This document shows positions 15,143-19,991 of a stretch of 64,000 bases of DNA, in pieces. Both the position numbers and the translations under genes were made by a program. The notes beneath the pieces were generated by a model that was not told where the DNA came from, ran no database searches, and saw nothing but the letters and a program-made list of their open reading frames with translations. The stretch is taken from contig NZ_CP036281.1 in NCBI RefSeq assembly GCF_007750395.1, positions 1,029,211 through 1,093,210 of the forward strand, written 5' to 3'. How positions within the stretch are numbered: position 1 is the stretch's first letter; every line of letters starts with the position of its first letter. The DNA comes from Polystyrenella longa (GTDB lineage Bacteria; Planctomycetota; Planctomycetia; Planctomycetales; Planctomycetaceae).

Positions 15143-15354
15143 AGTGCATCGCAAAATGCAGCAGGTTTCGCTGAGAACCTGCTTTTCAGGGGTAATCTGT
15201 GGCAATGCACTGTCGCGGAAGCTCAAAAATGGGCTTCGCGGGCGTAATTTGGGCTGTTGCCGGGATCTGCTCTAGAGCCAAATTGTAAAATCTGCTAAAA
15301 ATCCGCACGAGTTGTTCTCTTTCTCCCAACGAGACGACCAAAGGATTGGTCAGC

Positions 15355-16362
15355 ATGAATTTACGCAATGGATTGTTATCCCTCGTCCGGTGCTGCGCAC
15401 TGGTAGGGCTGCTGTTACCCACGCTGTTACAGGCGGAGGATCAGTTTCAGCCCCCGCGCACCTCTTTCCCGCAACCGCAGAGCGGGCAAATTGCGCAGTC
15501 TCAGAATCTAAACAGGACTCAAAATTCAACCGGGACCCAGAATCCAACAGGGGTTCAAAATCCAAACGGGGTCCAGAATCCGAATGTGCCTCCCAATGGT
15601 TCCGGCGGATACCAAAACAGGCCTATTGGAGAGAATTTCGCTCCTTCTGCAGCCAACACGGGTGATCCGACAACGGATCCTCGCTTTTCCAACAATACAA
15701 ATTCGTTCGATCACCATTCCCATCAGCCCGGAATGACAGAAACGAGTCACGCAGTAACACCACCGGGGAGCACGGGGTTCAATGCTTCTTCGTCTCAAGT
15801 GAATTTGTCCAGTACTAATTCATCCCAGGTGAATTTATCCCAAGTGAACAAATTAGCGCCAGCGGAATCGAGGGTGATCGGGGGCAAATCGGTAGAGGGA
15901 GCTGAAGCTTCAGAGGCGGACGCAGATAATAAACTCACCTTAGTTTCCCCTGGAAAGCTTTTAACCGCCGTGATGTTTGTGATCGTGTTGATCCTCTTCA
16001 CCGCTCGATATTGGAAACGACATATTCCCGGAGCTTCCCTGCCCATTCCGGGAGAATCTCTCACCGTTCTGGGTGAGAGAAAACTGAACAAAAACCACTC
16101 CATCTGCCTTGTTCGACTCGGTTCGAGAGTCCTCGTGCTGGGGGCTTCGGCGGATGGCTTACGGACGCTGACTGAAATTACCGACCCCGTTGAGATTGAC
16201 TACCTTTCCGGGATGGCTCGTTCTTCGCAGCCCGAATCGGTATTCACTTCGGCTCTCGGTTCTCTTCTGAAAAAACCTTCATCCTCTCTGGGGGCCAAAG
16301 TGACTACGGGTGGCACTGTAACCCGATCGTCAAGCCGTTCTCAGGAGGTGCGCAGTGCTTAA
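15355..16362 (+). CDS. fliO: Flagellar export apparatus protein FliO
   Basis: Probable FliO, which helps the FliP ring assemble. The 335-residue product has a Sec-type signal peptide (about 1-25, ending LLQAE), a long extracytoplasmic Asn/Gln/Pro/Ser-rich region with an imperfect tandem hexapeptide (about 50-78), a membrane segment (about 204-222, [19 protein letters not shown]) and the C-terminal FliO domain ([40 protein letters not shown]). It is far longer than the roughly 100-residue classic FliO, mainly in the external part. The ATG at 15355 has AAGGA about 9 bp upstream. It overlaps fliP by 8 bp. Confidence 0.82.
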
Positions 16363-17338
16363 TAAGTTAAATGACACGACGAAGCTCTATCTGAAAAACG
16401 ACAGCCGAAAGTGGCATGTTCTTCAGGTGATGATCGTACTCTTAACGTTACTGCTCCCCGGCCCTCTATCCGCTCAGCAGGGGGGACAGGCAGCTGGCAT
16501 CCAGGAGCAAAACTCACCAGACCGCAGCGAAGGTTTCTCCGTGAACCAGACGCTTCCCAACTTGTTGCCACAACAAACAGGCACAGCGAACGGGAATCCA
16601 AACGGTCTTCAGTCTCCACAACTTCTGGATGTTGATCAGATGTTGTCGCCAGAAGGATTCAGTTCCACGCTGAAGGTGATGCTGCTGTTGACCGTCATCA
16701 GTCTGGCTCCGTCCATCATGATCATGACGACCAGCTTCATTCGGTTTGTCATCGTGTTTGGATTATTAAGACAGGCATTAGGTACACAACAACTTCCCCC
16801 GAACCAGGTCATTATTGCACTCTGTATGTTCATGACGTTTCTCGTCATGTCGCCTGTTTGGGAAGAGGCGTATAACAGTGGGATCAAACCTTATTCGAGT
16901 CCCGAACCGGGGCAGGCCTCTATCACCATCACGGAGGCGTACGAAAGAACGGCCAGTCCGATTCGGACGTTCATGATTGATCAGATCGAATACACGGGCA
17001 ACGGCGATACGGTCCTGCAATTGTGGGAGTACCAAAACCCTGGCACAGAAGGATTTCCTGCGCAACCGCCAGAGACTTACGAAGATGTCTCGCTGTCGAT
17101 TCTGTTGCCTGCTTATATGCTCAGCGAGTTGAAAACGGCGTTTGTTATTGGCTTCCAAGTCTATTTGCCTTTTCTCGTCATCGATATGGTCATCGCGACC
17201 ATCCTTATCAGTATGGGCATGATGATGCTACCACCGGTCTTGATTTCACTCCCCTTTAAACTTCTTCTGTTCGTGCTTATCGATGGATGGAGCTTGACGG
17301 TGGGCATGTTACTGGAAGGTGTGCAACCTTACTTGTAG
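16355..17338 (+). CDS. fliP: Flagellar export gate protein FliP
   Basis: Core subunit of the membrane export gate (five FliP with FliQ and FliR). The 327-residue product contains the two family blocks: [20 protein letters not shown] with [20 protein letters not shown], and [20 protein letters not shown] with [21 protein letters not shown] cleavable signal peptide (about 20-42, ending PLSAQQ) and a low-complexity stretch extend the N terminus. The start is GTG at 16355, overlapping fliO, with a strong AGGAGG at 16343-16348, so translation is probably coupled. Confidence 0.96.
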
Positions 17339-17454: not shown

Positions 17455-17721
17455 GTGAATGTGGATCAGTCGATTGAACTTGCCCGCGAAGCTGTCATTC
17501 TGACATTGGTGTTATCGACACCGGTGATGGTTGTGGCAGTTGTTGTGGGTTTGCTCATCAGCATTCTCCAGGCTGTTACTCAATTACAGGACCAGACGCT
17601 CAGTTTCGTTCCCAAAGTCATCGCCATGTTTCTGGCGACCTTATACATTCTTCCCTGGTCCATTCAGCAGGCGATGGAATACTCGATCACACTCTTTACA
17701 GAGATTCCCGGGAACTTATGA
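17455..17721 (+). CDS. fliQ: Flagellar export gate protein FliQ
   Basis: Small export gate subunit with two membrane helices. The 88-residue product is the full family length and shows ELAREAVILTLVLSTPVMVV, GLLISILQAVTQLQDQTLSF and VPKVIAMFLATLYILPW, which are the FliQ signatures. The start is GTG at 17455 with GGAG about 9 bp upstream. It follows fliP by 116 bp and precedes fliR. Confidence 0.96.
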   Translation: MNVDQSIELAREAVILTLVLSTPVMVVAVVVGLLISILQAVTQLQDQTLSFVPKVIAMFLATLYILPWSIQQAMEYSITLFTEIPGNL

Positions 17722-17825: not shown

Positions 17826-18830
17826 GTGGAGACGTTTCTGCCGACATCATGGCAGCAGGATTTCGCCTCAGTTGCAAACCAGGCGTTGATCGCCTCTGCG
17901 CTGCACAGTTTTCATCTGTTTATCATGGTCGTGATTCGCATCAGCGGCTTGATGATCATCGGACCGCTATTCGGTCAGGTACTGGTCCCGTCCAACGTCC
18001 GCGTGTTACTCGTGCTGACCCTCAGTTTGATCGTCACACCGACTTTGTTTTCACAGGCCCATGTTGGTTTTGATCGCTGGGACGTGAATCACAATCAATA
18101 TCTCAGTCGCAACGAAGTCCCTCCCGATTTTCTATCGCGTTACGATACGATGCTCACGCAATATCAACGAGACCCGCAAGTCGGAGTCAACTTCGAGGAA
18201 TATCACCTCGGCCTGAAAATCTCGTCGACCCTCTACGATTTTGCCTGGAAAGCAGTCGGGGAATTATCTCTGGGGTTCAGTCTGGGCTTGGGAGTCATGA
18301 TCATTCTGTCCGGCCTGCAAATGGTGGGGGAGATGGTCGACCAGCAAATCGGGATCGCCCTCGGTGAAATCTTCAATCCGAGCCTTAACAGTTCCACATC
18401 GATCAACGGTCAGCTCTTCTTCATGATGGGCTCGACGATCTTCGTCCTACTGACGCCCATCAACGGGCACATCAGAATGTTAGGGACGTTGATTGAAACT
18501 TTTCAGACGATGCCGCCCGGTGAGGCGATACTGGGGCAATCGACCATTATGCTGCTGAGCGATCTTGTTCATCAATCCCTCGCTCTCGCAATACAAGTTG
18601 CGCTCCCTCTATTAGCGGCAACCTCGTTGTTGTCACTGACGATGGGATACCTGGGGCATTCCGTACCGCAAGTCAACGTGTTGATGATTGGTTTCGCCAT
18701 TCGTTCCGCCGTCAACTTGTTCGTATTATTGTTCTGTCTTTCTTCAGGGGGCGATACGATCGTGGAAATGCTCCCTCAAGTAATCGATCAAGTGGGTGAT
18801 AGTCTACACGGCCTGTACGAACCCGAATAG
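17826..18830 (+). CDS. fliR: Flagellar export gate protein FliR with an EF-hand-like insertion
   Basis: Export gate subunit that closes the FliP/FliQ helical ring. The 334-residue product shows the FliR pattern: IRISGLMIIGPLFGQVLVPS near residues 38-57, the LGEIFNPSLNSSTSINGQLF region near 179-198 and several hydrophobic segments. It is about 75 residues longer than usual because of a polar insertion at about 80-130, after the second membrane segment. That insertion contains DVNHNQYLSRNE (residues 86-97), which fits the 12-residue EF-hand calcium loop, and then VNFEEY (121-126), which resembles the end of a degenerate second loop. The start is GTG at 17826. Confidence 0.94.
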   Translation: METFLPTSWQQDFASVANQALIASALHSFHLFIMVVIRISGLMIIGPLFGQVLVPSNVRVLLVLTLSLIVTPTLFSQAHVGFDRWDVNHNQYLSRNEVPPDFLSRYDTMLTQYQRDPQVGVNFEEYHLGLKISSTLYDFAWKAVGELSLGFSLGLGVMIILSGLQMVGEMVDQQIGIALGEIFNPSLNSSTSINGQLFFMMGSTIFVLLTPINGHIRMLGTLIETFQTMPPGEAILGQSTIMLLSDLVHQSLALAIQVALPLLAATSLLSLTMGYLGHSVPQVNVLMIGFAIRSAVNLFVLLFCLSSGGDTIVEMLPQVIDQVGDSLHGLYEPE

Positions 18831-18902: not shown

Positions 18903-19991
18903 ATGGCGTCCGACGATAGTGGTGACAAAACAGAAGACCCAACCGAGAGGAAGCGCTCGCAGGCCCGCGAACAAGGGAATGTGGCCAAAAGCGCTGACCT
19001 CAATGCGGCTGCGCTCATGTTGATGACGGCCGTGGTGATCTATTGGTACGCGATCCCACTCTGTGAATTCACCATGGATTTAATGCGGGCCAGTTTAAGC
19101 ACCGGAGTATCGTCCGACTCTGATCCCATCGTGCTGCTGGAACGGTTGCCTCAGACAGTAGAGGCGGTGGCCGCGGAAGTACTCCCGATTCTGTTGATGA
19201 TGTTTTCCACCGCCATCGCCATTAATCTATTACAGATCGGTTTTCTATTCTCACCCGAGGCGCTGCAACCGAAGATGTCTCGGTTAAACCCGCTGGAAGG
19301 GGTGAAACGGATCGTCTCTGTCCGGGCGTTGGCCAAACTGGCCACCAGCATTGGCAAATTGCTCGTGCTGATTGGAATCGCTTCTTACGTGATCTGGGGG
19401 GCAATCCCAGAATTTGGTGCACTTTCTCTGTTTGGAGTGGAGAGCACGCAGGTCCTGACGACGGTTAAGGACGAAACGGCGATGCTTGCCTTCAAGCTTT
19501 CAATGGCACTTCTTGTGATTGCGGGTCTCGATTATGCGTTCCAGAAATGGAAACATGAGGAAGACTTGAAGATGTCGAAGCAGGAAGTCCGGGAAGAGAT
19601 GAAGCAAATGGAAGGGGACCCGCACATCCGCGCTCGCCGCCGGGAAATCCACCGCCGTTTGGCGTCAGCGCAGGAAATGAGCCGCGTCCCCGAAGCTGAT
19701 GTCGTCATCACCAACCCGACTCACGTTTCCGTCGCCCTCAAATACGATCCTGAGACAATGCCTGCTCCCGTGGTGGTGGCGAAAGGGATGGGAGAAATCG
19801 CCCTGCGTATCCGCGAGATCGCCGCCCAGCACAAAATCCCCATTATCGAACGACCACCGCTTGCCCGGTCGCTCTACAAATCGGTGAAAGCAGGCCATCC
19901 GATTCCTGCCGATATGTATGAAGTCTTTGTGGAAATCATGGCCTACGTCTACCGATTGACGGGCAAAAAGCTTCCGGGTCAGCACTCCTGA
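18903..19991 (+). CDS. flhB: Flagellar export switch protein FlhB
   Basis: Export gate protein that changes substrate specificity from rod/hook to filament after self-cleavage. In the 362-residue product the start GDKTEDPTERKRSQAREQGN is typical, four membrane segments follow (about 38-60, 95-120, 145-170, 190-208), and the cytoplasmic domain has the cleavage motif NPTH at residues 271-274 in VVITNPTHVSVALKYD. The FliK seen earlier in the locus is its expected partner. flhA, often next to flhB, is not present downstream. Confidence 0.97.
   Translation: MASDDSGDKTEDPTERKRSQAREQGNVAKSADLNAAALMLMTAVVIYWYAIPLCEFTMDLMRASLSTGVSSDSDPIVLLERLPQTVEAVAAEVLPILLMMFSTAIAINLLQIGFLFSPEALQPKMSRLNPLEGVKRIVSVRALAKLATSIGKLLVLIGIASYVIWGAIPEFGALSLFGVESTQVLTTVKDETAMLAFKLSMALLVIAGLDYAFQKWKHEEDLKMSKQEVREEMKQMEGDPHIRARRREIHRRLASAQEMSRVPEADVVITNPTHVSVALKYDPETMPAPVVVAKGMGEIALRIREIAAQHKIPIIERPPLARSLYKSVKAGHPIPADMYEVFVEIMAYVYRLTGKKLPGQHS

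Follow-up and report, generated by a model that had tools for sequence, protein, structure and literature searches.

The flagellar export gate subunit FliR of Polystyrenella longa carries, in place of the short tip of its R-loop, an insert that in all probability is an EF-hand. The insert loop very likely binds calcium, judging from its sequence, and the EF-hand pair to which it belongs probably entered the R-loop of FliR once, in the ancestor of one planctomycete family. FliR and the EF-hand are each of a known kind, and their combination is unreported among the open-access papers listed, as judged by titles and abstract openings. As to what the insert does, we lean towards a calcium-stapled EF-hand module at the FliE entry site of FliR.

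The gene lies in a flagellar cluster of the analyzed window, by which we mean the whole stretch of 64,000 nucleotides. The gate genes are arranged in the window as follows:

15346..16362, forward strand: fliO (PF04347, 34 bits, over the cut-off of 22; TIGR03500, 35.5 bits, below the cut-off of 55.25)
16355..17338, forward strand: fliP, gate subunit (TIGR01103, 241 bits, over the cut-off; PF00813)
17455..17721, forward strand: fliQ (TIGR01402, 92 bits, over the cut-off)
17826..18830, forward strand: fliR, export gate subunit with the EF-hand insert (334-codon ORF; PF01311)
18903..19991, forward strand: flhB (TIGR00328, 389.5 bits, over the cut-off)

FliF, FliG, FliI, FliK, FlgE, MotA, MotB, FliN, FliO, FliP and FliQ are encoded upstream of fliR, while FlhB, FlgF, FlgG, FlgA, FlgH, FlgI, FlgK and flagellin are encoded downstream. 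The gene thus has the operon context of a flagellar FliR (FliO, FliP, FliQ, FlhB, FlgF–FlgI, MotA and MotB nearby). The family assignment is given by PF01311 (Bac_export_1), with 132.9 bits against a cut-off of 27.8 (E 1.8e-38). The best NCBIfam match is TIGR01400 (fliR), which scores above SctT (86.1). Its 119 bits lie under the cut-off of 168.6, which serves detection and does not define the family, and come in two stretches, the best of which spans residues 132–321, presumably because the insert splits the profile match. We also considered that the protein might be SctT of an injectisome; this was ruled out by the NCBIfam and Pfam matches of the gene and its neighbors. When the full FliR model was compared with solved structures using Foldseek, the best matches were 6s3l_F (E 2.0e-6) and 9k29_F (E 2.9e-6), and TM-scores by target were 0.70–0.76 for 6s3l_F, 6s3r_F, 9k29_F, 6s3s_F and 8z5s_8. 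The FliR subunits of the Salmonella (9K29), Vibrio and Pseudomonas FliPQR complexes have the same fold, with the R-loop at the same position. As a separate observation, about 110 residues precede the conserved core of FliP (16355–17338; profile match from residue 111), which exceeds the need of a signal peptide.

Compared with the Salmonella FliR chain (264 aa), the FliR of the window is 70 residues longer, of which about 53 belong to the insert and about 16 to the N-terminus, as counted from the profile alignment. The first-pass annotation had correctly recognized the protein as longer than normal, the excess being 70 relative to Salmonella FliR rather than the approximately 75 residues given there. 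The R-loop tip has 58 residues in the window FliR versus 5 in Salmonella FliR (residues 64–68, i.e. between Salmonella residues 63 and 69). By hand count, P72 corresponds to Salmonella P56, H79 to T63 and D138 to A69. The insert and the elements around it are:

18063..18236, forward strand: insert, residues 80–137, replacing the R-loop tip (profile alignment to 36hu/9k29 FliR)
17991..18080, forward strand: helix 56–85, the second hydrophobic helix, running unbroken into the predicted entering helix of the EF-hand (AlphaFold2 model, DSSP)
18081..18116, forward strand: canonical 12-residue EF-hand loop DVNHNQYLSRNE, residues 86–97 (ligand pattern, site rates)
18123..18161, forward strand: predicted exiting helix, residues 100–112 (AlphaFold2 model)
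18165..18200, forward strand: second, degenerate EF-hand loop, residues 114–125 (model strands, superposition, EF-hand pair of the genome)

In DVNHNQYLSRNE, the ligand positions are occupied by D86, N88, N90, Y92 (through its backbone) and E97, and L93 is the hydrophobic residue. Ligands 1, 3, 5 and 12 together with a hydrophobic position 8 were found in the window and in 44 relatives. The degenerate loop retains D116 (position 3), V121 (position 8) and E125 (position 12), whereas positions 1 and 5 are lost; the second hand therefore lacks the binding set of ligands 1, 3, 5 and 12, and by eye it looks degenerate in the other A3 rows too. A single hand is enough for a protein to count as an EF-hand. 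The motif VNFEEY makes up residues 121–126 and is separated from DVNHNQYLSRNE by 23 residues; the first-pass annotation had placed both exactly.

A loose EF-hand pattern, run over the six frames of the window, matches six ORFs, namely FliR and five others. A single match of this kind therefore means little, and the proof lies in conservation. The loose pattern also matches FliF (477–2162), at DVNVSVTVDLSE, probably by chance. In the Pfam search suggested in the first-pass annotation, the FliR segment alone matches EF-hand_6 with 13.8 bits, under the curated cut-off of 25, which is a limit for detection and no definition of an EF-hand. A scan of full-length FliR at E <= 10 gave no EF-hand match; the module emerged from the alignment, the insert profile and the predicted structure. 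In a search performed insert by insert at E <= 0.1, EF-hand_6 was found in 15 of 33 and EF-hand_7 in 14 of 33 inserts (best E-values 2.3e-4 and 2.7e-4, respectively). Four unrelated Pfam families match one or two inserts at the same threshold, presumably by chance.

Conservation was analyzed in the GTDB family of the window (Planctomycetaceae), where a FliR search of 120 genomes produced matches in 96. For the conservation set, a single FliR-family ORF was taken from each of 76 genomes. Left out were L002 (a duplicate of L001), the fragments L078 and L079, the weak matches L081 and L082, L080, which had no ORF match, and the remaining weak matches of the search. The loop is ungapped in 49 of the 76 rows and gapped in the other 27. 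The pattern D.[DN].[DN]..[ILV]...E is present at the loop site in 45 of the 49 ungapped rows, and it occurs nowhere else in these 49 ORFs, which total 17,017 residues; none of the 27 loop-gapped rows contains it. A PROSITE-style pattern fits only 27 of the 49 ungapped rows, so the ligand pattern was used for scoring. The four ungapped rows without the pattern (L054, L057, L059 and L065) are placed by the tree outside the clades that bear the insert, and their inserts are taken as unrelated to the EF-hand insert. One of them, L054, which shares its contig with L151, has a GGDGRLHRNE insert at the same place, perhaps a decayed EF-hand or perhaps unrelated. The gapped row L048 (genome G045) is a contig fragment, the other half of which, L078, has the loop. 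In genome G058 there is a second, partial FliR copy at a contig end (L079) with an EF-hand loop of its own. Among named FliR ORFs, 32 of 77 have the loop; a 78th locus, L116, contains only a short gene end.

Calling rows insert-bearing by the pattern brings some circularity into these counts, and for this reason the site rates and the tree are important. When the 334 sites were ranked from the slowest upward in 45 sequences, D86 came third and E97 fifth. L93 (rank 67), N90 (89) and N88 (92) are slow as well, N88 and N90 not being extreme; in individual rows, asparagine is found mostly at position 3 of the loop and at times at position 5. In alignment A1 (43 insert-bearing sequences, the others being 34–80% identical to that of the window), D86 and E97 are among the 18 invariant columns. 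Their conservation equals that of the best-conserved positions in FliR. The invariant glutamate at position 12 also bears on the nature of the metal, because glutamate at this position is the bidentate Ca2+ ligand of canonical EF-hand loops. It speaks against an EF-hand-like fold that holds no Ca2+ in vivo, being either empty or occupied by Mg2+ or Mn2+. Such a fold would suit a single intact loop adjoining a degenerate one, yet we consider it quite improbable.

Overall, the insert evolves rapidly, with a median rate of 1.55 (residues 76–136) versus 0.54 for the FliR core, i.e. about three times faster. This is what might be expected of a hydrophilic insertion that is tolerated in an exposed loop and has no function, and two flagellated relatives without the insert could be cited in the same sense. 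However, D86 and E97 belong to the five sites that evolve most slowly in the whole protein and, within the insert-bearing clades, not a single row with the whole insert has lost a ligand. A functionless passenger is therefore hardly credible. Apart from L93 and the ligands, the more slowly evolving insert sites are P99, S/P133, R105, T135, F82 and F102 (ranks 63–117), whereas V121 (rank 169 of 334) and Y126 (rank 157) are slow only relative to the insert. With the exception of the exit residues 133 and 135, the slower sites mostly follow the EF-hand grammar of the genome (see below), which fits a constraint imposed by the fold or the metal.

The AlphaFold2 model of FliR was based on an alignment of 45 sequences, 33 with and 12 without the insert. 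Its pLDDT is 82.9, with blocks of 83–89 over residues 71–120 and 75 over residues 121–130. According to DSSP, the modeled region includes helices 56–85, 100–112 and 123–127 as well as strands 92–93 and 121–122, so that helix 56–85, loop 86–97 and helix 100–112 form a predicted helix-loop-helix. The insert modeled alone (62 residues) is again a helix-loop-helix with two short strands (pLDDT 83.3). In the prediction, a short beta-bridge at position 8 of the loops pairs the two hands. On the strength of the model, we read the insert as two paired EF-hands, the second of which has lost ligands 1 and 5 from its loop (114–125). The 50 Foldseek matches listed for the 62-residue module are EF-hand proteins, as judged by their titles, all of them at E 0.046 or worse. 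With VIA-align, the best match is NCS-1 (4ov2; Z 8.6, rmsd 2.0 over 56 residues), and calmodulin and calcineurin are matched too, keeping in mind that Z in this range can reflect a common arrangement only. The entire pair superposes on pairs of the calmodulin superfamily (NCS-1/frequenin, calmodulin, calcineurin B). It differs from them in sequence (23% identity) and in that FliR has one inserted pair, one dead loop and no known target. The insert profile matches 436 PDB sequences at E <= 1, the best at 9.9e-11, although the best single domain of the top match has E 0.25. Whole-sequence E-values are inflated here by repeated hands, so we put weight on protein names instead; the best 60 of the 436 are calmodulins and other calcium-binding EF-hand proteins.

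The genome of the window offers a likely source of the module. A search of it with the insert profile gave 16 matches at E <= 1, FliR among them. Five of these ORFs were examined, and by eye most of them start with a signal peptide or look envelope-type; one contains FFKRLDKDEDGKLSEAELPERMKERLAKLDKDSDGTISKEEF. The EF-hand pairs of the genome (e.g. in the 579-codon ORF of L222) have the grammar FxxLDxdxDGxLsxxElPxxmxxRlxxL...xIskeEF in common with the FliR insert, and the degenerate FliR loop 114–125 is at the same place as the second hand of the genome pair. In the 579-codon ORF both loops are intact and the hands are repeated, whereas FliR has one pair, with a degenerate second loop, between two helices. 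As the insert follows the grammar of the genome with a decayed second loop, it is likely to be a captured extracytoplasmic EF-hand pair.

Taken with the ligand pattern in 45 of 49 rows, the slow D86 and E97 and the predicted fold, this shared grammar bears out the EF-hand proposed in the first-pass annotation. The degenerate second hand that it had suspected is recovered in the model strands and in the superposition on EF-hand pairs, and a helix-loop-helix, which it had named as the fold to look for, is predicted both for full FliR and for the insert alone. Free variation of the loop residues in relatives, which it had named as evidence to the contrary, was not seen, D86 and E97 hardly varying.

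Searches for the distribution of the insert covered the phylum of the window, in which PF01311 is present in 243 of 392 genomes; a class-wide profile search gave matches in 193 of 297. Among the matches listed in the phylum search, PF01311 matches outside the family of the window span at most 741 nt, and those in G033, G074 and G001 of this family span 846–885 nt. No insert of such size occurs outside the family among the matches listed in the phylum- and class-wide searches. The class-wide matches listed include 34 that extend over the insert columns. Every one comes from the family of the window, and 33 have E 5e-113 or better; the 34th is G075 (L059, with the unrelated insert) at E 1.1e-51. 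The loop is present in all 30 class-wide loci taken, nine of which come from genomes outside the 76, and in none of 30 other-family loci from the phylum search, all of them outside the class. Of the relatives known by name, Gimesia and Alienimonas chondri are among those that have the loop, and it is absent from the Bythopirellula, Adhaeretor, Aeoliella and Phycisphaerae rows. The presence of the insert in all planctomycetes is thus ruled out, since the other-family matches listed lack an insert of this size and the 30 other-family loci lack the loop. An assembly artefact is likewise ruled out, the insert having been found in dozens of genomes.

The history of the insert was examined on a tree of 116 rows (50 with the loop) from which the insert columns had been removed (quick IQ-TREE, SH-aLRT only; modest backbone support). 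On this tree, the loop state changes five times versus 38 times in shuffles (0 of 500 as low), and starred branches force three changes. This history fits a single gain followed by a few losses of the whole insert. Possible losses are L051, within the insert clade, and L049 and L050, which adjoin insert rows. L047, which groups with other-family rows, may predate the gain.

Association with other flagellar genes was counted in 75 of the 76 genomes, those with a clear insert state (G045 was set aside). FliE is present in 44 of 45 insert-bearing genomes versus 8 of 30 without the insert, an association confounded by shared ancestry (relatives are not independent) and by divergent, possibly non-flagellar FliR-family genes; a diverged FliE could also escape detection. 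Because of this dependence among relatives, the Fisher value calculated from the counts does not amount to a test. At least two FlgE/F/G matches are found in 43 of 45 genomes with the insert versus 9 of 30 without it, and zero matches in 0 of 45 versus 12 of 30. Six of the eight insert-free genomes with FliE (G028, G036, G040, G049, G095 and G102) have more than one FliR-family match. G057 (L051), inside the insert clade, is without the insert, FliE and rod matches, whereas G084 (L042) of the same genus has all three; the two make a natural pair bearing on the role of the insert. On the other hand, FliE and rod genes are present and the insert is absent in G052 and G002, so a flagellum can do without the insert.

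The genomes negative for both insert and FliE number 22 of 30 (loci L049, L051, L052, L054–L062, L064, L066–L071, L074, L075 and L077). Among the loci viewed with their flanks, FliO-P-Q-R-FlhB-like clusters are kept in L112, L127, L141, L144 and L151. FlhB ORFs are short in L112 (276 aa), L151 (290) and L123 (250; its genome, G049, has FliE), and FlhB in L127, L141 and L144 shows an identity of only 25–28%. Insert-free clusters are possibly non-flagellar or rod-less export gates in the family of the window.

The site of the insert in the gate can be related to solved structures. According to the profile alignment, it takes the place of P64-L65-F66, which in Salmonella FliR form the tip of the R-loop next to FliE. 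In each of the 11 solved FliR/SpaR sequences that were matched, the best stretch starts behind the EF-hand, at profile position 143 or later. In Kinoshita et al. (2025, PMC12403130), the R-loop (55–68) of closed FliPQR (9K29) is described as entering the pore of the periplasmic beta-cap, where its P64-L65-F66 clash with alpha3, a helix of the first FliE. According to their proposal, the R-loop may keep FlgD and FlgE from being secreted too early, before FliE has assembled. An interaction between FliR Phe66 and Met84 of FliE, the first rod protein to go through the gate, is described in a basal-body structure paper (PMC8546590). By homology to solved FliPQR, the insert would face the periplasm, the side assigned to it in the first-pass annotation, and the planctomycete module may likewise be near FliE or FliF, a contact suggested by homology only.

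Structural homology between FliP and FliR covers residues 64–100/18–55 and 173–245/71–155, and the periplasm-facing level is formed by five FliP and the N-terminal part of FliR (PMC8239009). It follows that the FliP periplasmic domain (about residues 101–172) and the R-loop of FliR are located at equivalent positions, where the FliR of the window likewise has a domain. The FliP domain (p-loop/HTH alpha3-alpha4) is alike in its homologous place between helices (PMC8239009, PMC12403130). It differs in having no EF-hand loop, about 72 residues and a p-loop that touches the FliF i-loop (PMC12403130). Our FliR-FliP profile alignment pairs the insert with the FliP domain; it is weak (probability 4.9%, E 0.008), and with insert-free FliR as query the insert region is not covered. 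Because it is too weak to establish homology between insert and FliP domain, the published structural homology was used instead. By eye, no insert-linked change was found in FliP. The homologous site (PMC8239009), together with the position of FliR as the sixth member of the FliP5-FliR1 ring, might suggest that the module is FliR's own periplasmic domain, touching the MS ring, with calcium holding the fold and FliE uninvolved. The pairing in the profile alignment agrees with this, but its weakness and the missing coverage with the insert-free query tell against it, and we regard such a role as unlikely.

In the calcium-stapled module towards which we lean, a planctomycete-type EF-hand pair with the first loop intact and the second degenerate would sit in the periplasmic R-loop of FliR and bind one Ca2+ in the periplasm. 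The ion would staple the mobile loop into a rigid helix-loop-helix unit atop the gate. The stapled unit may then help FliR to seat FliE, or touch the MS-ring wall, as the periplasmic gate opens, much like the five FliP subunits, each with a periplasmic domain of its own at the equivalent position. The gate would then depend on periplasmic Ca2+ for its assembly or opening, the ion most likely serving as a permanent structural cofactor rather than a varying signal. As a periplasmic site faces environmental calcium, it could stay filled always, acting as a structural staple.

Alternatively, the insert might be a calcium switch, in which binding or loss of Ca2+ moves the R-loop and opens or blocks the passage of FliE, making export respond to external calcium. 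This presupposes that the affinity of the module falls within the range of environmental Ca2+ changes. The presence of an EF-hand loop at an R-loop proposed to gate FliE is in keeping with a switch, and one intact loop, with asparagine as described above, suggests a modest affinity. Yet there is no strongly conserved surface beyond the EF-hand grammar and the exit residues, and in seawater and many fresh waters the site would often be occupied. We therefore see a switch as possible but not likely.

In pathogens, calcium is known to affect type III secretion, and a study of EscP, by its title, reportedly concerns calcium sensing in type III secretion. No title or abstract opening among the papers listed on this subject locates the calcium site to the gate core. 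The FliPQR core is common to flagella and type III injectisomes, and an R-loop that is proposed to gate FliE and carries a metal-binding module provides a natural probe of the loop's role. It also makes it possible to test, in a non-pathogen, whether a type III export gate depends directly on calcium. If the insert does act as a switch, these planctomycetes would have calcium control built into the core of their type III secretion gate.
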